A stretch of 64,000 bases of DNA from Candidatus Nitrosocosmicus franklandus (GTDB lineage: Archaea; Thermoproteota; Nitrososphaeria; Nitrososphaerales; Nitrososphaeraceae): assembly GCF_900696045.1 (NCBI RefSeq), contig NZ_LR216287.1, positions 248,001 to 312,000 on the forward strand. The letters run 5' to 3'. Under the pieces are notes generated by a model that did no database searches, was not told the DNA's origin, and was given only the letters and a program-made list of their open reading frames with translations. This document shows, in pieces, positions 13,520 to 55,008 of this stretch. Every line of letters starts with the position of its first letter. Within the stretch, counting starts at the first letter, position 1. Both the position numbers and the translations under genes were made by a program.

Positions 13520-13603
13520 GCGGGGGTCGCCTAGCCTGGTAGGGCGTGGGATTGCTAATCCCATGTTCGTAAGAACTCGTGGGTTCGAATCCCACTCCCC
13601 GCG
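13520..13603 (+). tRNA. tRNA-Ser (anticodon GCU)
   Basis: An 84-base class II tRNA. The acceptor stem GCGGGGG pairs with TCCCCGC (one G-T pair); discriminator base G. D arm, anticodon stem TGGGA/TCCCA with loop TTGCTAA (anticodon GCT), a long variable arm (about TGTTCGTAAGAACT) and T arm GTGGGTTCGAATCCCAC are all visible; the long variable arm fits serine. There is no intron and CCA is not encoded. Its last 20 bases are the start of the 29-bp direct repeat bounding the integrated element, so the tRNA remains intact after integration. The integrase frame overlaps its 3' end. Confidence 0.97.
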
Positions 13604-15108
13604 CTTATCTTGGGGATTTATACGACAATTTTAAATGCGATAGAAAAGCACCTAATGACAGAACGACAAATTTGGCGCATGAAAATACTTCTAGTCATAT
13701 TGAACAACATCAGCAATACATCTATTCATCAATCACTAAAAGGATAGACTCATTGACAAAATCATGCACAAAACAATATTTCAACAAGGTTTTAAAAAAT
13801 CTAGCCATTGCTAATATCGGCAATGCGAATACTATTTGTGATTATATTATCTCTGAAGAAACAGAGATCAACATCAAGAATTCTACTAAAGAAGGGAAAA
13901 TAAAGGTTCTTGTATGGCTTTCAAATTATCATGAAAACAAAAAACTCTTTAGAGAACTAACCAAACAAGATATCCTAGAATTTTTAAATAATTTGCGAAA
14001 ACCAATATCTGAGGACCCGACTCAGAGGTGGATTGGTTCTTACAATGGAAGACAAATCATTTTGAATAAATTTTTTAGATGGCTTTACAACCCTGAAGAA
14101 CCAGATCACACAAAGAGACAAACTCCGGATTGTATGAAGGGAATAAAGCAACTGCCAAGGAAGGAAAAAACTCCATATTCTCCCTCAGACTTATGGGAAC
14201 CCAGAGAGCACGTTTTATTTTTGAGATATTGTCCTAGTGTACGAGACCGATGCTTTCATGCTATGGCAAATGATTCCTCATGTCGGCCGTCAGAGTTGCT
14301 GAATTTACGAATACGTGACATTATTTTCAAAAAGACGCGTGAAGGAAAGCAATATGCAGAAATTCTGATAAAGGGAGGTAAAACCAGACCAAGGACCGTA
14401 CCATTAATAGATTCAATTCCATATGTAAAAGATCTTATTGATAATCATCCCACCGGTTCAAACCCTGATTCTTGGCTTTTTGTTTCCAGTTCTAAAACAT
14501 CCTTTGGATCGAGATTAACCCTTGATGGTTTAACCTATCAGTATAAATATTTCTATAAGAATCGATACTTCCCGGATCTTTTAGAGGACGAAACAGTTCC
14601 CGAAGCAGATAAAGCTTTGATTAGAAACCTGATAACAAAAAAATGGAACATTTATGTCCAGAGGCATTCGGCTCTCACCCTTAAATCCCAATTCTTAAAA
14701 GAACATGTTTTAAGAGACCATGCAGGTTGGACCTTAAGCAGCAAGATGCCTCAGATTTATATTCATTATTTTGGTAACGAATCTGCCAATTCTATCCTAC
14801 AAGCCAAAGGAATTATCAAACCCGAGAATGAAGAAAATAATATTAGCACGATGAAACCAAGAGAATGCCCGAATTGCGGTGAACCAAATAAAAGAGATGC
14901 CAGATTTTGTGCGAGTGATCATTGTCGAATGGTCCTATCATATGACTCCTATAATGAAGTTCGGAATGAAGATAAGCAAAAAATTGACAGACTAGAAAAT
15001 CAGATGAAATCACTGCAAGATGGTATGAACAGGATTTTTGCAGTCATACATCAAAATAACATGTTGATTAACATAAAGCCGGAGATTTTAGAAAAATTAG
15101 TAAAATAG
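13579..15108 (+). CDS. int: tyrosine recombinase (integrase) of the element
   Basis: Recombines attP with attB in tRNA-Ser. Catalytic residues in order: Arg236 (SCRPSELLNL), Lys265 or Lys268 (IKGGKTRPR), Arg362 in YVQRHSALT (the His of HxxR is Tyr here), His381 with Gly383-Trp384 (DHAGW) and nucleophile Tyr394 (PQIYIHYFG). A C-terminal zinc ribbon (CPNCGEPNKRDARFC, Cys430 and Cys433 onward) and a coiled coil (about 465-490) follow. In the integrated state the frame starts at GTG 13579 inside the tRNA; TTG 13672 (codon 32) is an alternative. Joined to the right repeat in a circle it would start at an ATG (see attR). Length 509 residues. Confidence 0.93.
   Translation: MGSNPTPRAYLGDLYDNFKCDRKAPNDRTTNLAHENTSSHIEQHQQYIYSSITKRIDSLTKSCTKQYFNKVLKNLAIANIGNANTICDYIISEETEINIKNSTKEGKIKVLVWLSNYHENKKLFRELTKQDILEFLNNLRKPISEDPTQRWIGSYNGRQIILNKFFRWLYNPEEPDHTKRQTPDCMKGIKQLPRKEKTPYSPSDLWEPREHVLFLRYCPSVRDRCFHAMANDSSCRPSELLNLRIRDIIFKKTREGKQYAEILIKGGKTRPRTVPLIDSIPYVKDLIDNHPTGSNPDSWLFVSSSKTSFGSRLTLDGLTYQYKYFYKNRYFPDLLEDETVPEADKALIRNLITKKWNIYVQRHSALTLKSQFLKEHVLRDHAGWTLSSKMPQIYIHYFGNESANSILQAKGIIKPENEENNISTMKPRECPNCGEPNKRDARFCASDHCRMVLSYDSYNEVRNEDKQKIDRLENQMKSLQDGMNRIFAVIHQNNMLINIKPEILEKLVK
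13584..13612 (+). repeat. attL, left attachment-site direct repeat
   Basis: A 29-bp sequence covering the last 20 bases of tRNA-Ser and the next 9 bases, identical to 32596-32624. It begins TTCGAATCCCACTCCCCGCG. Typical of archaeal tyrosine integrases, which recombine in the 3' half of a tRNA gene. Confidence 0.93.
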
Positions 15109-16853: not shown

Positions 16854-19439
16854 ATGAAATCTTCGGCCGGAGTCGTAGTTGATTTGATTGAATTTGACAT
16901 ATCTGATGAGTTAAAGCCTATTGTTTCGGAATTTGGATACGATAATAATGGATCAATCAAAATAACCTTTACAGAAGTTTATCAAAATTTGTCTTTACAC
17001 TGTTTCTTTGATATAAATAAGATTCAAAAATCACTTGCCGAATTTGAAAGGAAGTTGAAGTCCAAAGTACAAAGGCTTTTGCCATCTCACTATAATCTTA
17101 TCGAAGAGGATTTTATCAAGAATTTGCATAAGATAGACCTCGTTGAAGATGATACAAAGAGTTCAGATAGACAAAGTGATGATACTAAAACACAAGACAA
17201 CAAAATAGTATATCAAAGAAAATATCAGTTAGGTTTTATCCTATATGAAGCTGTTATTGTAGAAAGGTTACCAAAATTTGTTTTTTATGACTCTGGCACC
17301 TTCAATCTCATAGATAAAATAGAAGTAGCAAATTACACTATTTATCCAGCTGATACAATAATTTCATCTAACCCCATTCCATATTCTTTTGAATCAGAAC
17401 AAGAGCTAGCAGACTACCTGGAACTTGCCAAGAATGAAACTTTTGACTCTCTATTTGAAAAGATCCTATCAGAATTCAAAGACTACGTTAACGTAGAAGA
17501 ACATAATCAAATAATATTATCATGTGGAATATTGTTTAGCTATTTTCAGGACAAATTCGGCGCAACTCCCTATAATATTCTAGTAGGAGAGAACGGGTCC
17601 GGAAAGAACTCGGCGCTACTTGTATTTAGGTTGTTAGGATATAGGCCTCTTTATATCACAGCTGCAAGTGCTGCAAATTACTATACATTTTTGGGCCAAA
17701 TTCAGGAAGGCCAGGGAACAATAATAGAGGATGAGGCAGATAACATCTGCAACTCAATAGAAAAGAAAAACATGCTCAAGACAGGATATTCCAGTGGTGG
17801 TTCCGTTCCGAAGGTTGGGTTTACAAAAAATGGTAGACGATTCCAAGAATTCTATTTGACTTTTTGTCACAAGTGGTTTGCAATGGAAGAATTACCTCAG
17901 GGTAAAAACAACAGAGGTGTTTTTGACCGGTCGTTCATACATTATTTTATGAAAGGTGATGTAAAATACAACATTAAGGATGTATTAAAGGACAAAGATT
18001 CAAAGTCATACCAGAATTTAATTCACCTAAGAAAACTTCTCTTGGCTTTCAAACTTGTAAACTATGACCGAAAGTTTCCAAGTGTAAAGACAAATTTGAA
18101 AGATAGAGATGCCGAATTGACTCATCCACTGTTGAACATATTTTATGAGGGCCGCAATTTTGAAAAGATAAGATTAGCGTTATCAAAGATAATTTCTGAG
18201 AAGACGTCTACAAAGAGCAATTCTATTGAAGCAATGATTGCAGAAACTTTAAGACAGTTGATTGAAAATAAGAATGAACTAATAATTAGCATCTCCAACG
18301 ATGCTTTCTATTCCAGGTTTAAGGAAGTATCTGAAGCAAAAGATTACTGTTTTGATGAATCAAATTCGACCTTCTATCTACCAGATGGAACCAAGATATC
18401 CAAATCTAAAATTATAAACTTGCTAAAGTCCAAATTCAAGGCAAAACTATTCAGGACAAACCAAGCCAGAGGTTTTACCATCAATAAACGCGATATTGAA
18501 AAAATCTCAAAACAATATGATATAATAGAAGAAATAATCGTTAATGAGAACCAAACTAAAGGAACACATTCGCCTGATGCTATAGAAGAAGATGAAAAAC
18601 AAATGGCAAGTAAAAAGAAGGTGACGGAGGTGACGGAGGTGACGGAGTTTAAAGATGCCATACCTCATTTTGATGAAAAAACTTCAAAGGATGATAATCA
18701 ACGAAGAAAAGAAGATGATCTCACCCCAAAAGATAAAGGAGGTAATAAAGATACTATCTCAAGCAAGAAGGAAAATGAAGTAGATAAGAATAACGAATCC
18801 TTAGCCGGTCCAAACACTTACTATGATAAGGAAGATAACTCGACTAATAGCTCTTCTGATACTTCAAATCCTGATAATAAATCAAATACAAACTCAACTG
18901 ATCTTAACGCGACGCTTTCTAACTTAAGAGAGAGTAATAATAGTAGTATTACCAATAACAATACTGAGCATATAGGTAGAGAGGCTAAAGAGGAGCTAGG
19001 GCGAGAACCCCTTGTATCTAACAAATCAACGATCAATCAACCTGAGTCTATATCTTCTAAGGAACCATCTCACAACTCGGGTTCTACTTCCCTTTCATCA
19101 TTGAGTTCTTACAACTCAAATTCTCAGCAGGAAACTCAATCTAATAAATATAAAGTAATTTCAAAAACAATATACACACCTTTAAAAGGCGTCACGGGTG
19201 TCACCTCCGTCACTGCATTACCCCCGCAATATCCCTGTTATTTCTGTGGTAATGATTATAAGACAGGTATAGACTTTGACATGGAACTTCATCTACTTGA
19301 GAAACATAAGCAACAAATGTTAAGGCTACCTATCAAAGGTAATTTAGATAATCGGAGCGAATATTTGGTTCAACTCACAAAAAAGAAGATTAGGGACGAA
19401 AGTACAGTTAATGTCGAAGGAGACCACTATGAACTCTGA
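16854..19439 (+). CDS. P-loop helicase-like replication protein with C2H2 finger
   Basis: An 861-residue putative replicative helicase/ATPase of the element. The centre has a P-loop (VGENGSGKNS, residues 244-253; Asn replaces the usual Ser/Thr directly after Lys) and Walker B (TIIEDEAD, 289-296), with a sensor-like FCHKWFAMEELP near 342-353 and an arginine in NNRGVFDRSF near 360, resembling DUF927/D5-like ATPases of plasmids and viruses. After about residue 590 comes a long Ser/Asn-rich linker, then a finger with C795, C798, H813, H818. The linker holds the repeats VTEVTEVTE and VTGVTSVT, whose DNA forms inverted repeats. It overlaps the primase gene. Confidence 0.75.
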   Translation: MKSSAGVVVDLIEFDISDELKPIVSEFGYDNNGSIKITFTEVYQNLSLHCFFDINKIQKSLAEFERKLKSKVQRLLPSHYNLIEEDFIKNLHKIDLVEDDTKSSDRQSDDTKTQDNKIVYQRKYQLGFILYEAVIVERLPKFVFYDSGTFNLIDKIEVANYTIYPADTIISSNPIPYSFESEQELADYLELAKNETFDSLFEKILSEFKDYVNVEEHNQIILSCGILFSYFQDKFGATPYNILVGENGSGKNSALLVFRLLGYRPLYITAASAANYYTFLGQIQEGQGTIIEDEADNICNSIEKKNMLKTGYSSGGSVPKVGFTKNGRRFQEFYLTFCHKWFAMEELPQGKNNRGVFDRSFIHYFMKGDVKYNIKDVLKDKDSKSYQNLIHLRKLLLAFKLVNYDRKFPSVKTNLKDRDAELTHPLLNIFYEGRNFEKIRLALSKIISEKTSTKSNSIEAMIAETLRQLIENKNELIISISNDAFYSRFKEVSEAKDYCFDESNSTFYLPDGTKISKSKIINLLKSKFKAKLFRTNQARGFTINKRDIEKISKQYDIIEEIIVNENQTKGTHSPDAIEEDEKQMASKKKVTEVTEVTEFKDAIPHFDEKTSKDDNQRRKEDDLTPKDKGGNKDTISSKKENEVDKNNESLAGPNTYYDKEDNSTNSSSDTSNPDNKSNTNSTDLNATLSNLRESNNSSITNNNTEHIGREAKEELGREPLVSNKSTINQPESISSKEPSHNSGSTSLSSLSSYNSNSQQETQSNKYKVISKTIYTPLKGVTGVTSVTALPPQYPCYFCGNDYKTGIDFDMELHLLEKHKQQMLRLPIKGNLDNRSEYLVQLTKKKIRDESTVNVEGDHYEL
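18621..18647 (+). repeat. three tandem GTGACGGAG repeats in helicase gene
   Basis: Three exact tandem copies of a 9-bp unit. An inverted exact copy of 14 bases (GTGACGGAGGTGAC against GTCACCTCCGTCAC) occurs at 19200-19213. In frame the units encode VTE triplets. They could be iteron-like binding sites or simply a coding repeat. Confidence 0.7.
19191..19217 (+). repeat. inverted counterpart: three 9-bp GTCAC units
   Basis: Three 9-bp units starting GTCAC (GTCACGGGT, GTCACCTCC, GTCACTGCA) about 550 bases from the GTGACGGAG array and in the opposite orientation; the centre contains the exact reverse complement. In frame they encode VTG/VTS/VTA. Confidence 0.65.
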
Positions 19440-20526
19440 AGATATAGACTTTATAATGTCTCACTTTGGTCATCAGTTACAGGATTTTCCACGTAAGATG
19501 ATGACTGACAAAATAGGTGCTCAAGTTCCGGTATTTTCAAAAGAAGAGATCTTCATAAAGTGCCAAGAATCAGATTTCATAGATTGTAGGATTAATGCCT
19601 ATCCGGAATACACTGAATACCAAGGAATAGTAAGACACCCCCCAAACTTTATTTTTATAGATCTGGACTTGTCGAAGTTTAAAAATTCTAAAAAGAAACT
19701 TGATAATGCTTTAGAGAATACCTTAAACAACATTCATTATCTTGGAGCAAAACCTACCGTGATGTGGTCTGGAAACGGATATCATATTTATCTTCCAATA
19801 GAAGCTATGGTTTTGGACCTGATAGATAAATTTTCAAAAGATAAATTCCCAAGCCTTTTCTCAGATAATTATTATAGCAAATACCATGGTTATTCAGTAT
19901 CAGAATTATTTTTAAAATTCGCTAAAGACCATCTAACCAATGGAAATGCTGATCCGCAGCATCATCCAAAGTACAAAACATGTTTGATAAGGTTTCCCAA
20001 TACCTACAACTCAAAAAACATCGGGAATGGATTAACTCTTGAAGAATCAAAAGTTAGGCTAATTCAAAAATGGGATGGTGGAAGAATTCCCATACAACTG
20101 TTACTTAAGGACTTTAGGAGGTGGATAGCACAAGAAGAACTTGACCAAAAAAGAAGAATCAGAAGGATAAAGTCCAAGATTCTCAATAGTAAATCAAAAA
20201 ACTCGGAAATATTATGGATAGAGAAACTGCTTCAAATCCCACTTGAAGATCACAGAAAATATTGTCTTTTTCACATTTTGGTACCTTATCTTGTCAATGT
20301 GAAAAAGTTACCGCCCGAGGAAATTTCTCAGGTAATAGTTGATTGGTTGTCAAAATGTAACAATGTGAAGCATCTAGATTTTGATCCAGTGTCAGAAATT
20401 AAAAATAAGATGAAATATGTCAAAAGTTACAAGCCTATGAGTTTGCCTAAATTAAGAAGAGAAAATAAATGTCTGTTTCAAGTTTTGTTTCCTACAATTG
20501 GTAATTTTTGTGGGACTGGCTGTTGA
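19429..20526 (+). CDS. archaeo-eukaryotic primase (primase-polymerase)
   Basis: Probable primase of the element, partner of the helicase-like protein. Numbering from an upstream ATG at 19411, it has the AEP motifs: FIFIDLDLS (catalytic Asp84 and Asp86), MWSGNGYHIYLP (SxGxH motif, 120-125) and TCLIRFPNTYNSK (190-202, like the RxPxTxN nucleotide-binding strand). The C-terminal 130 residues (LEDHRKYCLFHILVPYLVNV onward) resemble a PriCT/PriL-type helical domain and end with Cys residues (CLFQVLFPTIGNFCGTGC). I chose ATG 19429 because AAGGAGA lies just upstream (19417-19423); it overlaps the helicase gene by 11 bases. 365 residues. Confidence 0.85.
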   Translation: MNSEDIDFIMSHFGHQLQDFPRKMMTDKIGAQVPVFSKEEIFIKCQESDFIDCRINAYPEYTEYQGIVRHPPNFIFIDLDLSKFKNSKKKLDNALENTLNNIHYLGAKPTVMWSGNGYHIYLPIEAMVLDLIDKFSKDKFPSLFSDNYYSKYHGYSVSELFLKFAKDHLTNGNADPQHHPKYKTCLIRFPNTYNSKNIGNGLTLEESKVRLIQKWDGGRIPIQLLLKDFRRWIAQEELDQKRRIRRIKSKILNSKSKNSEILWIEKLLQIPLEDHRKYCLFHILVPYLVNVKKLPPEEISQVIVDWLSKCNNVKHLDFDPVSEIKNKMKYVKSYKPMSLPKLRRENKCLFQVLFPTIGNFCGTGC

Positions 20527-20631: not shown

Positions 20632-23334
20632 TTAGTTTGCAAAGTTTACATGTATATGGTCGGTTATCAATGGAACAATTCGTCCGTTTACTATTTCTGT
20701 ACAACCATTTCCTGCTAGTCCATTTACCGGTAGTAAGTTATTTCCGCCTTCGCAACGAAGGATAGTAGGTTGATTTCCATAATTATTATCACGGATTACT
20801 TCTCTAAGAAGCAGTTTATGATTATCTGTCATGGGGGCACCATTTCTATTTAAGAAACCAATATCAACCTCTTTTCCAGAATTATGGGAAACATGAGGAT
20901 TTATCCAATGCCCATTTACATCTGATAAGCCACCCCATCCCAAATTCATAGCTGTTATTTTTACAGGAACATTCACATTACGAATGAGAACAGGTATCTC
21001 TGGTTGTTGTACCACTCGATTATTTACTACAATGGGATCCTGATCAACTCTGCAATCAGGGTTTCTAGCAAAGTTTAGGACTTGACTACAAGTCTGCTGT
21101 CTATCAATGAACTCTTGAGCAATTGCCATTATTGCGTTATTTGTTTGTTGTGTACCATAAAATTCACACCCATGGTTATCTTGTTTTTGAAAGAAATAAT
21201 TCCCTACTTGAGGATATATAGCACGAAAAGCTGGCGGACAATTATCTCTTTGAGAATTTGCAATAGGCTGAAGAGGGTTATTTTGATCATTAGTGTCCAA
21301 AACCCTTGTATCAATAGAAACAGATGAATGAAATGGCGTGTTGTGATTTGCATCTTCGGTTTCTACTAATGAGGCAATTACATCATCTTGACCAGAAATG
21401 TAAACTGTAGTTCCTGATGCTGTTATGCGTTTTGGAGATTCATAGTCTACTTGAACTATCCCCAAGTTATTAGTGTTAAGAGTGATGCCTTGAATCACGT
21501 TGTTTACCATCGGTTGACGAGCGTTGTTCAGGAAAGCAGCAGGTCGTTGATCTCCTTGAGGTCCAATATTACACTTATCATTTCGATTATCGTGGTTTTC
21601 GTGACCATCATGAGATAGAGTCGAAGGAATAGTGCATGCCTTAATTCTAACATTTTCATTTGGTACAGGTTGATTATCAGTATTTTTTACAGATACAGTT
21701 AACCGTGCAGTTGCGTCCCCAGGTTGAGTATTGGTAGCAGGAGGAGCATATGGATTGATCGAATCTCTATTACTAGTTATTTCTATAATTAATGGTAATA
21801 CCGTTACACTTACTGTGTCAGGTTTACTATCCTGTTTTCCGTCGTTAACCACAAGCTGATACACAAAAGTTTCTTCTCTGTCAACGTATGGAGCCATAAA
21901 TGATGGAGCAGCGGTATTTGGATCTTTTAACGGCGGAGCAAAAGGTGTTACTGGGGTCCATCTAAAAGTTATTTCTCCAGCCGGTGTGCTTCCAAGACCA
22001 TTCAACTCAACGTTAGATCCGGAGTTTACTCTTTGATCAGTTCCAGCATCAGCAACTGGTGGACAATTATCGTCATCGGCGGCGGCAGCGGTGCTAGATA
22101 CAGACGATAGTGTCAATGGTATATTCGGAATTCCAGAGATTGTGTTAGCAGATACTTCGTCACATATCAATGGATTTACTATTATTGTTTCAGCTTCACT
22201 AGTTGATGCACCATGAGTGTCTGCTACAGTAAGTGAAAATGAAAGAGAAGTGTCTCGATCAACCGTTGGCGCAGTAAAGCTTGCAATTGGAGAATTAGCG
22301 CCAGATAAACTTACTGGAGGACCAGATACTTGATCCCACCTGTAACTCGCAATCGAATCGCCAGGATCTGGATCAAAACTATCTCTTCCGTCCAGGGTTA
22401 CAAATTCTCCACTACTGACAATATTTGAAGGAAGAACAATTATCGAAGTCTCAGGAGGACTATTTTTAGGATTCACCACTATATCTATAAAATTAGGATT
22501 ACTGTCGACAAACGCATCATTAACAACTGACTTAAATTGTAAGGTCGTCTTTTCGTCTACATTTGGAGCGACGAAGTCCCATTGATAAGAATCATCTAGA
22601 TAACGAGGAGTCAAATTGACCGCTGGTCCTTTTGTTTGTATCATGCTGGTCGAATAAATAGGATCATTATCAGAATCTGAGTACCCCTGATCTATAGTTA
22701 CAAGTGTGCCCGATCTAATTTCAGTTATATCGGTAGGTTGCACAACTCGATCATTTGAGATTGGTTTTGAGTTGGAAATAGAAAGATCCCAAAACTGTAC
22801 GTCATTCCCAGAAGAATAGATCTCCCCATTAGGTCCCCTGGTTATAGGATAATCTGAACCACCACCGAATCCGCAAACGGCAGGACTATACCCCTTTGTC
22901 AAAAAAGCCGATTCAGGCATATTTGAAACAATTACACGAAAATGTGCCCCAATACTATCCTGGTTCGCATTTACTGCTCCATTCAAGGCTACTTCTCCAG
23001 AATGAGGATCACCACCGGTTTCCAAGTTAGCTTGATATCTATATGAAGTAGCGTCTGGATCGAGTTCACCATTTTCATCGTACACATAGTTTTCACAACT
23101 TACGGTCCAAGTTCCAGTGGCCATGAAATTGCCTCCCCTTATATGCTCTATGGGGCCAGAAAGATGTATTTTTGTTTCAATAGAAGGTTCTACGTAGTTT
23201 ATCCCACCTTCAAGAGTTCTAGAGGAAGATGAAGCGTTAACAAAGGAACTATTTCCGTTCCATATTAGTATCAAAAAGATAAAACCCAAGACAATATAAA
23301 ATACACTCAATCTCTGTATTTTCATTAATTTCAA
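20632..23334 (-). CDS. secreted PKD-repeat protein with C-terminal LAS-type zinc peptidase
   Basis: A 900-residue exported protein, the largest cargo gene. A signal peptide (about 1-35) is followed by a unique domain, then about three PKD/Ig-like units (roughly 196-290, 290-390, 425-515; for example VTLDGRDSFDPDPGDSIASY and VELNGLGSTPAG), an Ig-like segment (about 535-640) and a C-terminal domain. The last domain has His817-x6-Asp824 (HNSGKEVDIG) and His893-x-His895 (DHIHVNF), the zinc-ligand signature of LAS peptidases (M15, M74/MepA), which cleave peptidoglycan peptides in bacteria. Archaea lack peptidoglycan, so the substrate may be foreign cell wall or protein. Promoter lies in 23335-23699. 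Confidence 0.82.
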   Translation of the reverse strand: MKLMKIQRLSVFYIVLGFIFLILIWNGNSSFVNASSSSRTLEGGINYVEPSIETKIHLSGPIEHIRGGNFMATGTWTVSCENYVYDENGELDPDATSYRYQANLETGGDPHSGEVALNGAVNANQDSIGAHFRVIVSNMPESAFLTKGYSPAVCGFGGGSDYPITRGPNGEIYSSGNDVQFWDLSISNSKPISNDRVVQPTDITEIRSGTLVTIDQGYSDSDNDPIYSTSMIQTKGPAVNLTPRYLDDSYQWDFVAPNVDEKTTLQFKSVVNDAFVDSNPNFIDIVVNPKNSPPETSIIVLPSNIVSSGEFVTLDGRDSFDPDPGDSIASYRWDQVSGPPVSLSGANSPIASFTAPTVDRDTSLSFSLTVADTHGASTSEAETIIVNPLICDEVSANTISGIPNIPLTLSSVSSTAAAADDDNCPPVADAGTDQRVNSGSNVELNGLGSTPAGEITFRWTPVTPFAPPLKDPNTAAPSFMAPYVDREETFVYQLVVNDGKQDSKPDTVSVTVLPLIIEITSNRDSINPYAPPATNTQPGDATARLTVSVKNTDNQPVPNENVRIKACTIPSTLSHDGHENHDNRNDKCNIGPQGDQRPAAFLNNARQPMVNNVIQGITLNTNNLGIVQVDYESPKRITASGTTVYISGQDDVIASLVETEDANHNTPFHSSVSIDTRVLDTNDQNNPLQPIANSQRDNCPPAFRAIYPQVGNYFFQKQDNHGCEFYGTQQTNNAIMAIAQEFIDRQQTCSQVLNFARNPDCRVDQDPIVVNNRVVQQPEIPVLIRNVNVPVKITAMNLGWGGLSDVNGHWINPHVSHNSGKEVDIGFLNRNGAPMTDNHKLLLREVIRDNNYGNQPTILRCEGGNNLLPVNGLAGNGCTEIVNGRIVPLITDHIHVNFAN

Positions 23335-24662: not shown

Positions 24663-25253
24663 TTATGAATCCTCTGATAGAGATTTAAATCTGTTTGGAC
24701 GATACGAAAGTTTTGCTTTAATATCTTCTAGTGTTTTTATTTCATCTTCTAATACTTTTTTTCTTAGTAACGAACAATTTATCTCATGCTGTAGCTGGTC
24801 TTTCATACTATCGAAAGAATGAATCTGACTCAAATAATCGATTAGTAAATCCGCCTCAGTATCAAATAATTCCTTGTTTTTTAGTTTCTCTATAACCTTA
24901 AGCAGAAATGGTATATATCGCTGATTTTTTCTGTAGAAATCAATAAATTCAGTCATGTTCTTTAAGGTCAGGTACTCTCCATAGTATTCTCTAACTTCAT
25001 TATATCCTAGATCTAGAATTTGCAAAACTTCAATAGTGTCTTTTCCTTCTGTGAACATTTGAAAAGCCTTTGCTCTATTTGATTTAGGTTTTTCTGGTAT
25101 TGGTTGTGTTTGGCCATTACTTTCTCTAATGATCTTTCCTATTACTGAGAAAGACATGTGAACATCTTTTGCTATTTCTCTCATGTTTTTTCCTTCCTTA
25201 TACAAGTCGATAACGCGATCTCTCTTGTTGTCTCTTATAGGGGTTGATGACAT
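24663..25253 (-). CDS. HTH-coiled-coil protein (paralogue of 35845-36453)
   Basis: A 196-residue DNA-binding protein. The N-terminal helix-turn-helix is KNMREIAKDVHMSFSVIGK (about 18-36, resolvase/Hin-like), then a second helical unit (AKAFQMFTEGKDTIEVLQIL) and a long helical C-terminus ending in a coiled coil (about 150-185). The 202-residue protein at 35845-36453 has the same layout (VREIAKLVHMSINDICEIIR). The start is ATG 25253 with cttttatactta on the minus strand about 26 bases upstream. Family known to me only as a recurring archaeal pattern; targets unknown. Confidence 0.7.
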   Translation of the reverse strand: MSSTPIRDNKRDRVIDLYKEGKNMREIAKDVHMSFSVIGKIIRESNGQTQPIPEKPKSNRAKAFQMFTEGKDTIEVLQILDLGYNEVREYYGEYLTLKNMTEFIDFYRKNQRYIPFLLKVIEKLKNKELFDTEADLLIDYLSQIHSFDSMKDQLQHEINCSLLRKKVLEDEIKTLEDIKAKLSYRPNRFKSLSEDS

Positions 25254-26120: not shown

Positions 26121-26417
26121 ATGAAACGGTCTTTTTATTTAAACAGCAATAAAAAAATAACTTCTAAAGGCATTATGATGTTGATGCTCCTTCCTCTGTT
26201 TTTTATAAGTACTAGTGAAGGTATCAAATCAATAAATGCTAGCAGTGATGGAGATGTCAGTTGTTATGATAAAGGAATTATAGATGGCGAAGACCACCCA
26301 TTCAACCAGGGAATGTATAATAGATGTGGAGAAGATTATTATCATGGATTTTTACAAGGCTGTATGTCAGTAGAGGGAAACGATAGAGATATTTGTGAAA
26401 GCGCAACAGATGCTTAA
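26121..26417 (+). CDS. small secreted Cys-containing protein
   Basis: A 98-residue exported protein: basic N-terminus and hydrophobic signal segment (GIMMLMLLPLFFISTSEG) followed by a small domain with four cysteines (VSCYDKG, NRCGEDY, QGCMSV, DICESA) and a motif GIIDGEDHPFNQG seen in short exported archaeal proteins. A TATA-like ccataaatag (26089-26098) lies about 27 bases before ATG 26121. Unknown role. Confidence 0.65.
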   Translation: MKRSFYLNSNKKITSKGIMMLMLLPLFFISTSEGIKSINASSDGDVSCYDKGIIDGEDHPFNQGMYNRCGEDYYHGFLQGCMSVEGNDRDICESATDA

Positions 26418-26865: not shown

Positions 26866-27243
26866 TTAATCAAATCTATCATAACATGGTCGATCTCCAC
26901 TATCATCTAAATCACAATATATATTGCCATTACATCCATCTGAACCTTCTGAACAATCATATTCAGAACTACCTGCGGTAGCGGCCTCATAAGCCGCATA
27001 TCCTGCGTAATAACCATTCATAAATTCACTAGTATGAAATTCCGGTCCTTTTCCAGGTTGGTTGATGTATCGTTCTGATGGATAGAATAGTTGTGCATCC
27101 TCATAACCATGATCAAATCCAGATTCGTACGGGCTCTTACTGGATGCTAATGCAGATCCAGGAATGGATATGAAAAGAACTGCAAGGATGCCAAAAATCA
27201 GATAGTTATATTCAACACGGCATTTTTTTCTGTAATAATTCAA
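26866..27243 (-). CDS. small secreted acidic Cys-containing protein
   Basis: A 125-residue exported protein: signal peptide (about 10-33, YLIFGILAVLFISIPGSALA), then a Tyr/Gly-rich domain (ESGFDHGYEDAQLFYPSERY, MNGYYAGYAAYEAA) and an acidic tail with five cysteines (DCSEGSDGCNGNIYCDLDD onward), possibly metal binding. The start is TTG 27243; minus-strand aaaatatataaat about 25 bases upstream fits. It shares the Gly-Tyr style of the secreted protein at 26121. Confidence 0.65.
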   Translation of the reverse strand: MNYYRKKCRVEYNYLIFGILAVLFISIPGSALASSKSPYESGFDHGYEDAQLFYPSERYINQPGKGPEFHTSEFMNGYYAGYAAYEAATAGSSEYDCSEGSDGCNGNIYCDLDDSGDRPCYDRFD

Positions 27244-28022: not shown

Positions 28023-28859
28023 TTAGGGATTTTGTATTTGTGGATTATATAGTATGTCTATTGTACATGACTTAGTCTCTTCTGGATGGATCACACCTGA
28101 ACAACCTTCACTATATTGAACATGGGCGGTATTGAGATTAATGAAGGCGTTCTTAGCTTTATGAATTACTTTGTAACTTCCAAATCCTAATGTTACCTCT
28201 GTTGGTTCAGACGTAGCTGGAAAAGCATCTGGCGATTGATGGTTCCCTTCAATGTGAATTGTATAAAAAGTTGAGTCTGCATTACCGCCATTAATGTTGT
28301 TGACATTGGCTATAACTATCACTTTCCCATACTGAACACCTTCTCCTGTATCACCTTTAGGCCCTTGTTCTCCCTGTGGTCCCGATGGTCCCTGTGGTCC
28401 CTGTGGTCCCTGTGGGCCTTGTGGTCCAGTTTCACCCTGTGGTCCTTGTGGTCCCTGAGTTCCAGTATCGCCTTTGTCTCCCTTTTCTCCCTGTGGCCCT
28501 TGTGGTCCCTGAGTTCCAGTATCGCCTTTGTCTCCCTTTTCTCCCTGTGGCCCTTGAGGTCCTTGTGGTCCCTGAGTTCCAGTATCGCCTTTGTCTCCCT
28601 TTTCTCCCTGTGGCCCTTGAGGTCCTTGTGGTCCCTGAGTTCCAGTATCGCCTTTGTCTCCCTTTTCTCCCTGTGGCCCTTGAGGTCCTTGTGGTCCCCT
28701 CAGCAAGTCCAATCCAGGGAGGTCTGCGAATTCATCAAGGTCAAAATCCACTGATATTGTGGCTAAGGCTTGGGGTATAAATCCCGTTATAACAGTGGAG
28801 AATACTACAGTAAATGTTATTAGAACAGATAACTTTATACTATAATTTGTCAAATTCAT
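28023..28859 (-). CDS. secreted collagen-like protein
   Basis: A 278-residue exported protein: signal peptide (about 1-33), short linker ([19 protein letters not shown]), then about 115 residues of uninterrupted Gly-X-Y triplets ([18 protein letters not shown] type) and a C-terminal globular domain of about 100 residues ([11 protein letters not shown] onward) with two cysteines ([16 protein letters not shown]). Gly-X-Y runs of this length form collagen triple helices; Lys-Gly-Asp charge pairs favour stability. Collagen-like proteins in bacteria and phages act as surface fibres or adhesins. The DNA repeats in 54- and 63-base units. Start ATG 28859. Confidence 0.88.
28349..28697 (-). repeat. 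54/63-bp coding repeats of the collagen-like gene
   Basis: Four near-perfect DNA units encode [18 protein letters not shown] (54 bp) or the same plus one GPQ (63 bp), flanked by shorter GPQ triplets. The near identity of units at DNA level implies recent duplication or recombination, so copy number probably varies between strains. Confidence 0.85.
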
Positions 28860-29860: not shown

Positions 29861-30685
29861 ATGACTATCTGTATTGGAGCTATAAGTAAAAACGATGATA
29901 AAACCAAGGAAAGTGCAGTTGTAGTATCTGACAGGATGGTCACTGTAGGATTGCCTCCAATTGAATTTGAACAGAAGTTATCAAAAAGTATTCAGATTAC
30001 ACAAAACTGTGTCGTGTCAATTGCAGGTTCTGCATTGGCCTTTTCGGACATTCTTAACGACGTTAGATCGAATCTTTCCGAAGGACAAAATTACAGTATC
30101 TCTCAGATTGCCGAAACAATAAGAAATTCATATACGAGAATTAGAAATAAGAAGATAGAAGAAGTAATCCTTTCAGGAATTGGAATGTCCTCAATTAGAG
30201 AATTTTTTGAAAGAAATATGACCTTGTCACAAAGTATAGTAAATAATGTTTTTGATGCATTTTCCAGATATAATTATGGACTCGTAATATTGGTAACAGG
30301 GACTGATATTAATGGTGCGCATGTATTAAGAATAGACAATCCGGGAACTATTCTGTCTTATGATAGTATAGGATATTGCGCCATTGGAATTGGAGAAATT
30401 CATGCAATGTCAACTTTTATTGCTAATGATTATTATCCTTATTTGGATCTCAACCATGTAGTAGCCTTATCTTATGAAGCAAAAAAACGAAGTGAAAAGG
30501 CCCAAGGAGTGGGACAACAAAGTGATTTGTTTATTATAAAGGATGGTAAATCAACAAAACTTACTGACGAACAAATTACGAATTTAAACAATATTTATGA
30601 TGCCCGCGCAGATCAAGAAAAAAAGGCTGTATCTAATATCGAGGAATCGATAAAAAACTTAAAAATTGACGACTTTTTTAATTAA
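29861..30685 (+). CDS. proteasome-like Ntn-hydrolase homologue
   Basis: A 274-residue protein with the layout of a proteasome-type Ntn hydrolase. After Met removal Thr2 (MTICIGAISK) would be the N-terminal nucleophile. SAVVVSDRMVT (about 19-29) gives the strand with the catalytic Asp, and EFEQKLSKSI (about 36-45) offers the Lys equivalent to proteasome Lys33. VVSIAGSALAFSDIL resembles the SxxGDxxD region, and SIGYCAIGIGEIHAMSTF resembles the later proteasome strand-Gly segment. A helical C-terminal extension follows. It is carried by the element; a related gene lies at 51878-52654. Substrate unknown. Confidence 0.75.
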   Translation: MTICIGAISKNDDKTKESAVVVSDRMVTVGLPPIEFEQKLSKSIQITQNCVVSIAGSALAFSDILNDVRSNLSEGQNYSISQIAETIRNSYTRIRNKKIEEVILSGIGMSSIREFFERNMTLSQSIVNNVFDAFSRYNYGLVILVTGTDINGAHVLRIDNPGTILSYDSIGYCAIGIGEIHAMSTFIANDYYPYLDLNHVVALSYEAKKRSEKAQGVGQQSDLFIIKDGKSTKLTDEQITNLNNIYDARADQEKKAVSNIEESIKNLKIDDFFN

Positions 30686-32560: not shown

Positions 32561-32593
32561 TTTAAATAATACAATCCCCAAGATAACCTAATG
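32561..32593 (+). promoter_or_regulatory. detached integrase promoter and ATG (circular form)
   Basis: tttaaata at 32561-32568 is centred about 26 bases before ATG 32591-32593. That ATG begins ATG GAT TCG AAT CCC and runs into the right repeat in exactly the reading frame the integrase uses through the left repeat (GTG GGT TCG AAT CCC). In an excised circle this promoter and start would precede the integrase directly. In the integrated state the frame continues into host DNA and stops after 28 codons. Confidence 0.72.
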
Positions 32594-32595
32594 GA

Positions 32596-32624
32596 TTCGA
32601 ATCCCACTCCCCGCGCTTATCTTG
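32596..32624 (+). repeat. attR, right attachment-site direct repeat
   Basis: Exact copy of 13584-13612. It holds the last 20 bases of tRNA-Ser plus 9 bases, with no tRNA body upstream; host sequence resumes to the right. This marks the distal end of the element. Confidence 0.92.
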
Positions 32625-32707
32625 TGGATTATATTATTTATCAAGAAAATGGAACTCATCAGATAGAAAACTACTAAAAATTATTATTTGACAACACTAT
32701 AGCTACA

Positions 32708-40411: not shown

Positions 40412-41242
40412 TCACTTGAATTCTTTAGTCATATATACTTTGTAAGGTTTTTGATTGTGTTTGTCGATATATTTCCAATCCAAATTTTCCAACGGAACTT
40501 GCTCAAATTGGGACTGAACACTAGGATGTAATAGTGAAAAAAAGGTTCCTCCCACCGAAATTCTGTTAGGAAGAGTAAGAGATGTTATTTTGGCTGTAAC
40601 GTTCATGACATAGCCAATCAGATCTATTTGTGAACTCTTGTCCTTTCCATATTGGATAACAACGTTTTCCCCTTCGGTCATCCCTATTTTAATCTTGATT
40701 GCAGGATAGCCGTGTTTACGGAAAACAGGATCGATATCATTTCTCAACACCGATATCATCGATTTGGCGCAATTATATGCTCTATCACATACAAGATATT
40801 TGTTAAATCCCGAAGGAAAAAAAGAAATGATAGCGTCGCCTACATATTTCAAAACAAACCCTCCATAACTTTCTACTACTGATGATAACTCATGAGAAAA
40901 TGCCTTAATTATTGTAACAACCTGCTCTGTAGACAATGACATACTCATTTTTGTGGAACCTACCATATCTGCATACATTATAACAAGATCAACCTTTGAA
41001 TTTACATGCTCGAGTAAAAACCGCTGGCCTCTTTCAATAGAGGTATTATATTGATATCTTTCACTCAGGGCGCTTTCTAAGCGACCTTGTCGTAAGTGAC
41101 GGAGTGTTCTGAAATCTACTACATTATTGTCAATTATGTCCAGGTCATTTTCATCGGTTGTACTGTTTGAGATTTCATTGTTTTTTTGATCTTGCTCGGA
41201 ATATTGGCTTTTAGAATCATTATCATCATTAATTGAAAACAA
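40412..41242 (-). CDS. class III adenylate/guanylate cyclase domain protein
   Basis: A 276-residue protein with one class III cyclase homology domain (about 80-265). VDLVIMYADMVGSTKMS (about 84-100) holds the first metal Asp92, and GGFVLKYVGDAIISFFP (about 127-143) holds the second, Asp136. DLIGYVMNVTAKITSLTLPN (about 205-224) matches the transition-state region near the usual Asn. An acidic N-terminal tail (about 1-40) has no sensor domain. It probably makes cAMP from ATP as a cytosolic homodimer; nucleotide choice is not certain. Start is TTG 41242. Confidence 0.85.
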   Translation of the reverse strand: MFSINDDNDSKSQYSEQDQKNNEISNSTTDENDLDIIDNNVVDFRTLRHLRQGRLESALSERYQYNTSIERGQRFLLEHVNSKVDLVIMYADMVGSTKMSMSLSTEQVVTIIKAFSHELSSVVESYGGFVLKYVGDAIISFFPSGFNKYLVCDRAYNCAKSMISVLRNDIDPVFRKHGYPAIKIKIGMTEGENVVIQYGKDKSSQIDLIGYVMNVTAKITSLTLPNRISVGGTFFSLLHPSVQSQFEQVPLENLDWKYIDKHNQKPYKVYMTKEFK

Positions 41243-46560: not shown

Positions 46561-47316
46561 TCAACCGAGTTCTATTAATTCCTCGCAATTTCCGGCTCTA
46601 TCATCACCTTGTTGTACATTGAAATCAGCGACAACGTCTACTCCTTCACCACAATCAAAGTAGTCTGCCCCTGGCCCACCTACGAGGACATCATCCCCTA
46701 AGTCACCATACAGTTTGTCATTTCCATCCTCACCGACTAAAAAGTCATCATCGCCACCACCAGCTAAAATATCATTACCATCTCCACCGTACAACTGATC
46801 ACTTCCAATACCACCTTGTAATATATCATTACCCTCGTCGCCATATAATTTGTCTTGTCCTTCGTTACCTTGGATCACATCGCTTCCATTCATTCCTGTT
46901 ATGGTATCCGAACCAGAGAATCCGATGATTATGTCTGTTTGCTCAGTCCCTGTAATTCTATCGTCTCCAAAGGAGCCTACTACTGGACGCTGCAGCTGTT
47001 GAAGGAGGGTATTAGGATCAATGGACTCCTGACCGGTATTTGCGAAATCCGAAGTAGATGATCCAGAATCGATTGACCTGGGTAAAGTAATACCTTCATC
47101 TTGGAATGTTTCAATAGAAGACTCGTCCGAACCATTGGTATCACTGGCGTTTATTACATTCCCTGGTGTACTAGTTGTTGGACTCCCGGCTGAATTGGTT
47201 GATACGCTTCCGGCTGAATTGGTTGATTGACCTTGGACGAGATTAGGGTATAAATTGGAAAGGCATAGAATTGAACTGATGAACATTACTAGCGCTAATA
47301 CTCTATACAGATGCAC
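46561..47316 (-). CDS. secreted RTX-repeat calcium-binding protein
   Basis: A 251-residue exported protein: signal peptide (about 1-29), Ser/Thr-rich linker (about 30-115) and about five nonapeptide-pair RTX units of type GGxGxDxLxG (for example NEGQDKLYGDEGNDILQGGI) from about residue 120 to 215, which bind calcium in a beta-roll. The C-terminal cap FDCGEGVDVVADF ... NCEELIELG has two cysteines and is shared with the paralogues at 47870 and 48938. Lies 63 bases upstream of the ABC operon on the same strand, possibly linked. Confidence 0.88.
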   Translation of the reverse strand: MHLYRVLALVMFISSILCLSNLYPNLVQGQSTNSAGSVSTNSAGSPTTSTPGNVINASDTNGSDESSIETFQDEGITLPRSIDSGSSTSDFANTGQESIDPNTLLQQLQRPVVGSFGDDRITGTEQTDIIIGFSGSDTITGMNGSDVIQGNEGQDKLYGDEGNDILQGGIGSDQLYGGDGNDILAGGGDDDFLVGEDGNDKLYGDLGDDVLVGGPGADYFDCGEGVDVVADFNVQQGDDRAGNCEELIELG

Positions 47317-50887: not shown

Positions 50888-50895
50888 CATTCATC
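50888..50895 (+). repeat. left target-site duplication of IS copy 1
   Basis: CATTCATC, repeated at 51566-51573 on the other side of the IS; direct sequence match. Confidence 0.9.
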
Positions 50896-51565
50896 GGCTC
50901 TGTTCACTTAATATGTTTTATTTCATTGTTATTATAGTCTACAAAGAGCCGCAGCCAATTCCGTACATGCTTTAACTTGCAATTCTTTATTCTACAAGGA
51001 AAGTAGTCATCGAAACTTTCGGTTCTATCCTTGATATATTGCATCGTTCTTTCGATTACACTTTTCTCGTAAGAAGAATGAATATGGTGATCGAGATTTA
51101 AGAATCTACAGGCCATTGGATACCAAGTACCTCCATCATCAGTCGAAACTGGGTGCTTTCCATGAACTTTGATCAAATTAGAAAGATATCTTTCTGCAAC
51201 AAACATGTTTCTCTCTTTGGATATAGAAAGTGCGAGGATCTGTCTGTTTGCAGGCTCTATCGCCACCCAAAGCCAGATGTATTCTGACCCTACCTTCAAC
51301 ATTGTCTCGTCTACAATATATTCTAGAATTCTTCTTCTTGATGCTTTCAATTTTTGAGGCCTGTATTTTTGAATCCAATTCCAGATGGAGACATGGTTTC
51401 TTTTATACATCTGAGACAATCTTTCCGAGGCTTTTCTTAAAGATAAACCTGAAAAGTACAAATGTAAGCCATAATACACATACCTTGAAGGTGTTCTGTT
51501 TCTGCTAATCATAAAAGAAATAGGACATCTTCAAGCTATAGGTTTATCGTTAAATGAACAGAGCC
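50896..51565 (-). mobile_element. IS6-like insertion sequence, intact copy
   Basis: 670 bp with terminal inverted repeats GGCTCTGTTCA (50896-50906) and TGAACAGAGCC (51555-51565). Flanking 8-bp direct repeats CATTCATC (50888-50895 and 51566-51573) are target duplications of the length made by IS6-family transposases. One transposase gene fills the element. A second, decayed copy is at 54338-55008. Confidence 0.93.
50904..51512 (-). CDS. IS6-like DDE transposase
   Basis: A 202-residue transposase filling the intact IS. N-terminal helix-turn-helix (GLSLRKASERLSQMYKRNHV, then SIWNWIQKY), then the DDE catalytic core: Asp68 in YIVDETMLKV, Asp125 in VSTDDGGTWYP and Glu154 in SVIERTMQYIKDR. The frame is intact and its end overlaps the left inverted repeat. 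Probably active. The second copy at 54346-54955 differs by two frameshifts. Confidence 0.93.
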   Translation of the reverse strand: MISRNRTPSRYVYYGLHLYFSGLSLRKASERLSQMYKRNHVSIWNWIQKYRPQKLKASRRRILEYIVDETMLKVGSEYIWLWVAIEPANRQILALSISKERNMFVAERYLSNLIKVHGKHPVSTDDGGTWYPMACRFLNLDHHIHSSYEKSVIERTMQYIKDRTESFDDYFPCRIKNCKLKHVRNWLRLFVDYNNNEIKHIK

Positions 51566-54329: not shown

Positions 54330-54337
54330 TTCGATCC
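54330..54337 (+). repeat. left target-site duplication of IS copy 2
   Basis: TTCGATCC, repeated at 55009-55016 directly right of the element. Confidence 0.9.
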
Positions 54338-55008
54338 GGCTCTGTTCACTTAATATGTTTTATTTCATTGTTATGATAGTCTACAAAGAGCCGCAGCCAA
54401 TTCCGTACATGCTTTAACTTGCAATTCTTTATTCTACAAGGAAAGTAGTCATCGAAACTTTCGGTTCTATCCTTTATGTATTGCATCTTTCTTTCAATCA
54501 GACTTTTCTCCAGAGAGGAATGAATGTGATGATCGAGATTTAAGAATCGACACGCTTGAGGATACCAAGTACCTCCATCATCAGTCGAAACTGGATGAAT
54601 TCCATGAATCTTGACTAAACCTGAAATGAATCTTTCAGCTACAAACATGTTTCTTTCTTTAGAGAGATAGACAGTGCGAGAATTTGCCTGTTTTCGGGTT
54701 CAGTTGCAACCCAGAGCCAGACAAACTCTGATCCCACCTTCAACATGGTCTCATCTATTATATACTCTAGAACTCTTCTTCTAGTTGACTTAGCTTTTGA
54801 GGCCTGTATTTTTGAATCCAATTCCAGATGGAGACATGGTTTCTTTTATACATCTGAGATAATCTTTCCGAGGCTTTCCTTAAGGATAGGCCTGAAAAGT
54901 ACAAATGCAACCCATAATATACATACTTTGAAGGCGTTCTGTTTCTAGTAAGCATAAAAGAAATGGAATGCTTTCAAGCTATAGGCTTATCGTTAACTGA
55001 ACAAAGCC
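54338..55008 (-). mobile_element. IS6-like insertion sequence, decayed copy
   Basis: 671 bp with inverted repeats GGCTCTGTTCA (54338-54348) and TGAACAAAGCC (54998-55008, one mismatch to copy 1). Its own 8-bp target duplication TTCGATCC lies at 54330-54337 and 55009-55016. The duplication differs from that of copy 1, so it inserted separately. The transposase frame is broken. Ends 57 bases before the gene at 55066. Confidence 0.92.
54346..54955 (-). pseudogene. frameshifted IS6-like transposase
   Basis: Three frames add up to the transposase of copy 1. The N-terminal piece (54767-54955) leaves frame after KYRPQKL (one base lost relative to copy 1), the middle piece (54639-54821) covers the first catalytic Asp (YIIDETMLKV) and ends after ALSIS where two bases are gained, and the C-terminal piece (54346-54648) holds the rest (VSTDDGGTWYP, LIERKMQYIKDR). 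Not expected to give active transposase, but its ends could be mobilised by copy 1. Confidence 0.88.

Follow-up and report, generated by a model that had tools for sequence, protein, structure and literature searches.

Why would an ammonia-oxidizing archaeon, which makes no peptidoglycan itself, carry on a mobile element the gene for a secreted protein whose tail resembles enzymes that cut this bacterial polymer? The question is raised by a 64,000-nucleotide stretch of the genome of Candidatus Nitrosocosmicus franklandus (contig NZ_LR216287.1, positions 248,001 to 312,000; hereafter the window), in which an integrated element encodes a 900-amino-acid protein with PKD modules (Table 1). On balance, we favour the explanation that this protein is a secreted, element-borne M74-like zinc endopeptidase most likely acting on bacterial peptidoglycan, although the lean towards this explanation as a whole is modest. 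Sequence comparison gives us high confidence in the narrower claim that the C-terminal domain is genuinely an M74-like LAS domain and probably a functional one.

Zinc motif of a secreted PKD protein

The open reading frame of the protein starts with TTG, and ATG is its codon 4. The initial annotation had described a secreted PKD protein on a mobile element, with a zinc-site motif formed by H817, D824, H893, and H895 and about 70 residues between the two halves of the motif. This description held up in our analyses: the N-terminal hydrophobic segment is accompanied by genuine PKD units (PF22352, E 4.9e-25), the translation places the four residues at exactly these positions, the distance from D824 to H893 is 69 residues (76 from H817 to H893), and the mobile element, with its integrase, is delimited by tRNA-end repeats. 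No C-terminal membrane anchor was found, the N-terminal hydrophobic segment being the only one in the protein.

A further histidine absent from that annotation, H814, completes the H-x2-H-x6-D signature of M74, such that H814/H817/D824 match H110/H113/D120 of E. coli MepA and PHVSHNSGKEVDI of the archaeal domain aligns with GHASHQTGLDVDI of MepA. All five residues lie within the last 90 of the protein, and the full motif reads PH-V-SH-NS-GKEV-D...H-I-H. The zinc triad of LAS enzymes (H-x(3-6)-D...H) is present as H817, D824, and H895 and is kept in the only homologue described below; the HxH of these enzymes, whose first His is catalytic in most members, is present as H893-I-H895. Taken alone, the loose form of the motif (H-x6-D with HxH 50-95 residues on) is weak evidence, as it occurred in 1.5% of shuffles of the same protein; among the 67 open frames of at least 100 amino acids in the window, it was found in one, namely 20632-23334. 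The strict LAS/M74 form, H-x-[ST]-H-x2-G-x3-D...HxH, occurred in none of 20,000 shuffles.

Relationship to M74 peptidases

Searches of the C-terminal domain with Pfam, NCBIfam, and PHROG models and against PDB sequences gave no credible match, and the M15 Pfam models did not match the protein. The relationship emerged from profile-profile comparison with hhalign, in which the query profile was built from two archaeal sequences and the targets were M74 proteins from E. coli, plasmids, and viral contigs. The score against a broad M74-like set was 48.5 (Prob 94%, P 1.4e-7), the best of 500 shuffled decoys reaching 22.1, and against MepA-type sequences alone it was 34.4 (best of 300 shuffles, 22.5); without trimming, the score of the real alignment was 41.7 (Prob 86). 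Some decoys with shuffled gap-rich columns exceeded 130, probably through degenerate profiles (the cause is not proven), and these were replaced by decoys gap-trimmed on both sides. The alignment reaches beyond the motif alone, spanning in order the helix FYGTQQTNNAIMAIAQEF, a strand with a GG pair, and the zinc motif. A domain without the LAS fold, carrying the motif by chance, would fit the lack of a library match and of a confident fold, but the margin over the decoys and the shuffles devoid of the strict motif render it extremely improbable.

When single sequences were compared by hhalign, the ten top targets were all M74 or M74-like, whereas M15A MepK, M15D DdpX, and phage M15 scored like the unrelated E. 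coli proteins that served as negatives, which is indicative of an M74-like rather than an M15 domain. The highest score was that of a phage M74-like protein (L041, IMGVR_UViG_3300008954_003018) with a nearly identical motif (PPHVSHQSGRDVDI) and a PF03411 match of 5.5e-5, which differs by a long insert before HxH and by unrelated flanks. Of the two families that the initial annotation had proposed for the LAS-type domain, M15 is thus not supported; the HMM (hidden Markov model) search suggested there yielded no Pfam match to either family, and the M74/MepA part stands through profile homology. The case for LAS/M74 homology is strong.

MepA (MEROPS M74, PF03411, PDB 1tzp/1u10) shares with the archaeal domain the H-x2-H-x6-D and HxH motifs, the preceding helix, strand, and GG pair, and the order of these elements. 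Unlike MepA, the archaeal domain has ~40 residues inserted ahead of the strand that follows the first helix, lies below Pfam detection, has Ile890 in place of H206, and is fused to a PKD/Ig stalk. Bacterial M74-like proteins (Geminocystis WP_066122634, Nostoc WP_104902403, Herpetosiphon Haur_5194, and Rhizobium WP_258163207) are modular and plasmid-borne with a compact C-terminal or embedded domain, which in the Nostoc protein is fused to PG_binding_1; they keep the extra His of H-x2-H-x-H, and no PKD stalk was seen in the stretches read. Since the archaeal domain falls below the Pfam cut-off and lacks the His206 equivalent, we call it M74-like rather than M74 proper.

A single homologue and a patchy distribution

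Scans of genome, virus, plasmid, and phage collections with the domain returned one homologue, from a metagenome-assembled genome (MAG) of Ca. Nitrosopolaris wilkensis, which is 46% identical and has PH[VA]SHN.GKEVD and HIH intact. Every zinc and catalytic residue is invariant between the two domains, as are four of the six cysteines of the franklandus domain, which would be consistent with a disulfide-bonded extracellular protein. A PKD frame precedes the Nitrosopolaris gene, and an integrase is encoded ~6 kb away. In the MAG the gene does not run in a single reading frame; this split PKD and M74-like gene is possibly a pseudogene or an assembly error. By eye, the end of the Ig-like segment in franklandus resembles the stretch upstream of the Nitrosopolaris domain.

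Among 70 genomes from the family, two contained the domain, and it was missing from 14 other Nitrosocosmicus genomes. Searches covering the order (400 genomes) and the phylum (398 genomes, an overlapping set) gave no further convincing match. PF03411 gave nothing above its cut-off in the 398 phylum genomes, and PF02557 had no match in the genomes of the family. Several candidates were set aside: a weak PF03411 match in one genome (G178), lying out of frame over another gene and attributed to chance; PF08291 matches on a phage-like contig (G165) and overlapping a CbiD-like gene (G027); and weak, unsupported HMM matches in other archaea (E 0.002-1).

Proposed activity and substrate

In the mechanism we propose, the signal peptide would export the protein, and the N-terminal domain with about three PKD modules and one Ig-like module would act as a spacer from, or an attachment to, a surface. 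One zinc would be bound via H817, D824, and H895, and H814 would belong to the second shell. As in LAS enzymes, for which the mechanism and the role of the first His of HxH have been described (PMC4087270), the zinc would activate water and H893 would be the catalytic residue, so that the C-terminal domain would hydrolyse peptide cross-links in the walls of neighbouring bacteria. Zinc binding, catalysis, the peptidoglycan substrate, and antagonism over feeding as the benefit are all points that we infer. As the tail is related to peptidoglycan-cutting enzymes and the polymer is absent in archaea, the protein may serve as a weapon or tool against bacteria. Peptidoglycan is favoured as the substrate because the host makes none and because the nearest relatives either carry a murein endopeptidase annotation or have a peptidoglycan-binding domain fused to them.

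It is also favoured because bacteria-killing peptidoglycan hydrolases that are secreted, patchy in distribution, and mobile (plasmid-enriched) have been documented in other archaea (PMC12352652). The type represented by Woldo of Halogranum salarium (PMC12352652) is likewise archaeal, often secreted, patchy, and enriched on mobile DNA, with a catalytic domain of bacterial type, but belongs to M23 and carries PG_binding_1 domains. The protein described here shares the secretion signal and the patchy, mobile distribution of such modular archaeal hydrolases and lacks their pairing of a catalytic domain with a known wall-binding domain; the survey in PMC12352652 would therefore miss it, as a known wall-binding domain was required.

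Several observations weigh against a peptidoglycan-cutting M74-like enzyme. PF03411 gave no match at E<=10, which places the domain below the Pfam gathering cut-off, and family searches matched PKD and Ig modules only, with no cell-wall-binding domain recognised. The split of the Nitrosopolaris copy across reading frames leaves the franklandus gene as the only complete one known. AlphaFold2 models of the domain were of low confidence because homologues are too few: the mean predicted local distance difference test score (pLDDT) was 34 when a single sequence was supplied and 36 with an alignment of five rows. Foldseek found no fold match. In the five-row model, domain residues 40-63 form a helix and residues 133-137 and 204-208 form strands, approximately the positions expected for a LAS core, although so low a confidence gives this agreement no weight. 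Finally, the M74 signature H-x2-H-x-H (H206/H209/H211 of MepA) is incomplete, with HxH retained: the position of H206, the His five residues ahead of the last zinc ligand, holds Ile890 in the franklandus domain, Leu in the homologue, and His in 16 of the 17 M74-like sequences compared.

The absence of this histidine from both archaeal copies could mean that the domain binds zinc without catalysis and serves in binding; yet the three zinc ligands, the catalytic His of HxH, and H814 have all been retained despite divergence to 46% identity, and we consider this very unlikely. The same loss could instead reflect a changed substrate, in that an active LAS peptidase would cleave a surface polymer or glycoprotein of archaea, including the host itself, for wall remodelling or for attack on other archaea. 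Wall-associated genes for amino-sugar transformations are numerous in Ca. N. franklandus, which does not have the usual S-layer protein (PMC6776761), and PKD proteins are frequent in this group of archaea. However, the absence of the domain from 14 other genomes of the genus argues against a core wall enzyme, and its closest relatives are annotated as murein endopeptidases and peptidoglycan-binding proteins, so that an archaeal substrate seems unlikely. Secretion and a soil host would also suit a nutritional enzyme that degrades the peptidoglycan of bacterial necromass extracellularly for carbon or nitrogen, the chemistry being identical to that of the antagonistic enzyme we favour; as the gene is a single mobile one and the element showed no genes for uptake or recycling, such a role is distinctly unlikely.

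The integrated element and its surroundings

The element measures 19.05 kb and is bounded by a 39-bp repeat whose copies are 95% identical. Among its open reading frames (ORFs), no capsid, packaging ATPase, terminase, or conjugation genes were recognised. Thaumarchaeal cryptic integrated elements are defined by an integrase and attachment (att) repeats at the 3' end of a tRNA gene, without virus or conjugation genes (PMC6563490), and the element shows the same integrase, att repeats, and lack of recognised virus or conjugation genes. A collagen-like protein that is likewise secreted and contains long Gly-X-Y repeats (28023-28859, minus strand) is encoded on the same element and resembles the collagen segments of phage tail fibres. 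This likeness could suggest a provirus in which the PKD protein would be a virion or entry component of virus-like or transfer machinery; with no virion or packaging genes recognised, a good fit to the cryptic class, and no peptidoglycan for an archaeal virus to cross, we regard this as quite improbable.

The element also carries a gene for a proteasome-subunit-like protein (29861-30685, plus strand; PF00227, 1.7e-8) and genes for two small secreted proteins (26121-26417, plus strand, and 26866-27243, minus strand) with related aromatic/acidic motifs (GMYNRCGEDYYHGFLQGC; YESGFDHGYEDA). Outside the element, the window encodes a class III adenylate/guanylate cyclase catalytic domain (40412-41242, minus strand; PF00211, 1.3e-12) and an RTX calcium-binding repeat protein (46561-47316, minus strand; PF00353, 1.6e-25). 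Direct repeats at 50895-51565 and 54337-55008, ~3.44 kb apart and 89-90% identical, represent a duplicated segment.

Table 1. Features of the integrated element and domains of the PKD protein, in window coordinates
Feature	Position	Strand	Evidence
attL, 39-bp repeat covering the tRNA-Ser(GCT) 3' end (gene at 13520-13604)	13580..13618	plus	95% identical to attR
Tyrosine integrase overlapping the tRNA gene	13579..15108	plus	phrog_1, 4e-23; PF00589, 5.1e-6
Probable replication helicase, 861 aa, Walker-A-like GENGSGKN, C-terminal C2H2-like finger	16854..19439	plus	sequence only; no Pfam match
Primase with PriX domain	19411..20526	plus	PF18689, 2.8e-11
Secreted PKD and LAS/M74-like protein	20632..23334	minus	900 aa; open frame, translation, family matches
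Signal peptide, residues 1-35 (FYIVLGFIFLILIW...SSFVNA/SS)	23230..23334	minus	sole hydrophobic stretch; cleavage site by eye
Lineage-restricted N-terminal domain, residues 36-200	22735..23229	minus	89% identical in genome G036
PKD-like repeat 1, residues ~198-290	22465..22743	minus	inside NF038112 PKD match 202-387; PF22352 in two stretches
PKD repeat 2, residues 306-386	22177..22419	minus	best PF22352 stretch, E 4.9e-25 for whole protein
PKD repeat 3, residues 424-513	21796..22065	minus	weak PF18911 match 423-459; aligns with PKD repeats of related genomes
Ig-like (Big_1/MG4-like) segment and His-rich loop, residues 515-689	21268..21792	minus	weak PF17789/PF02369 matches
LAS/M74-like putative zinc peptidase domain, residues 699-900	20635..21240	minus	hhalign Prob 94, P 1.4e-7; homologue P0001 46% identical
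Zinc motif PHVSHNSGKEVDI, residues 813-825 (H814; predicted zinc ligands H817, D824)	20860..20898	minus	kept in Nitrosopolaris homologue
DHIH, residues 892-895 (H893 predicted catalytic, H895 predicted third zinc ligand)	20650..20661	minus	HxH kept in homologue and M74
attR, 39-bp repeat	32592..32630	plus	95% identical to attL

A relative with another C-terminus and wider implications

In a genome of another genus (G036), we found a protein that is 80% identical over residues 1-389 and has an unrelated C-terminus; the N-terminal domain (36-200) was absent from the rest of the 400 order genomes. The C-terminal domain of this relative (G036:C95) has a weak DUF3238 match (E 0.014) and is possibly an alternative effector, and a helix-turn-helix (HTH) gene resembling that at 24663-25253 of the window sits upstream of it. 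These two examples hint that C-terminal modules may be exchanged between proteins. It is conceivable on these grounds that ammonia-oxidizing archaea have a modular antibacterial effector system, in which a conserved secreted N-terminal/PKD scaffold would receive swapped C-terminal effectors and spread among genera on integrated elements, although we regard this as rather doubtful.

Judged by titles and abstracts, none of the literature searched describes a peptidoglycan hydrolase from an ammonia-oxidizing archaeon. Bacteria-killing peptidoglycan hydrolases of archaea are already known, and the putative M74-like enzyme described here would add a variant to them. Surveys based on Pfam cut-offs and known wall-binding domains overlook some archaeal candidates. 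If the enzyme is active, a cultivated and globally important lineage of soil ammonia oxidizers would gain a concrete means to act on bacteria, and such genes would be shown to travel on integrated elements.
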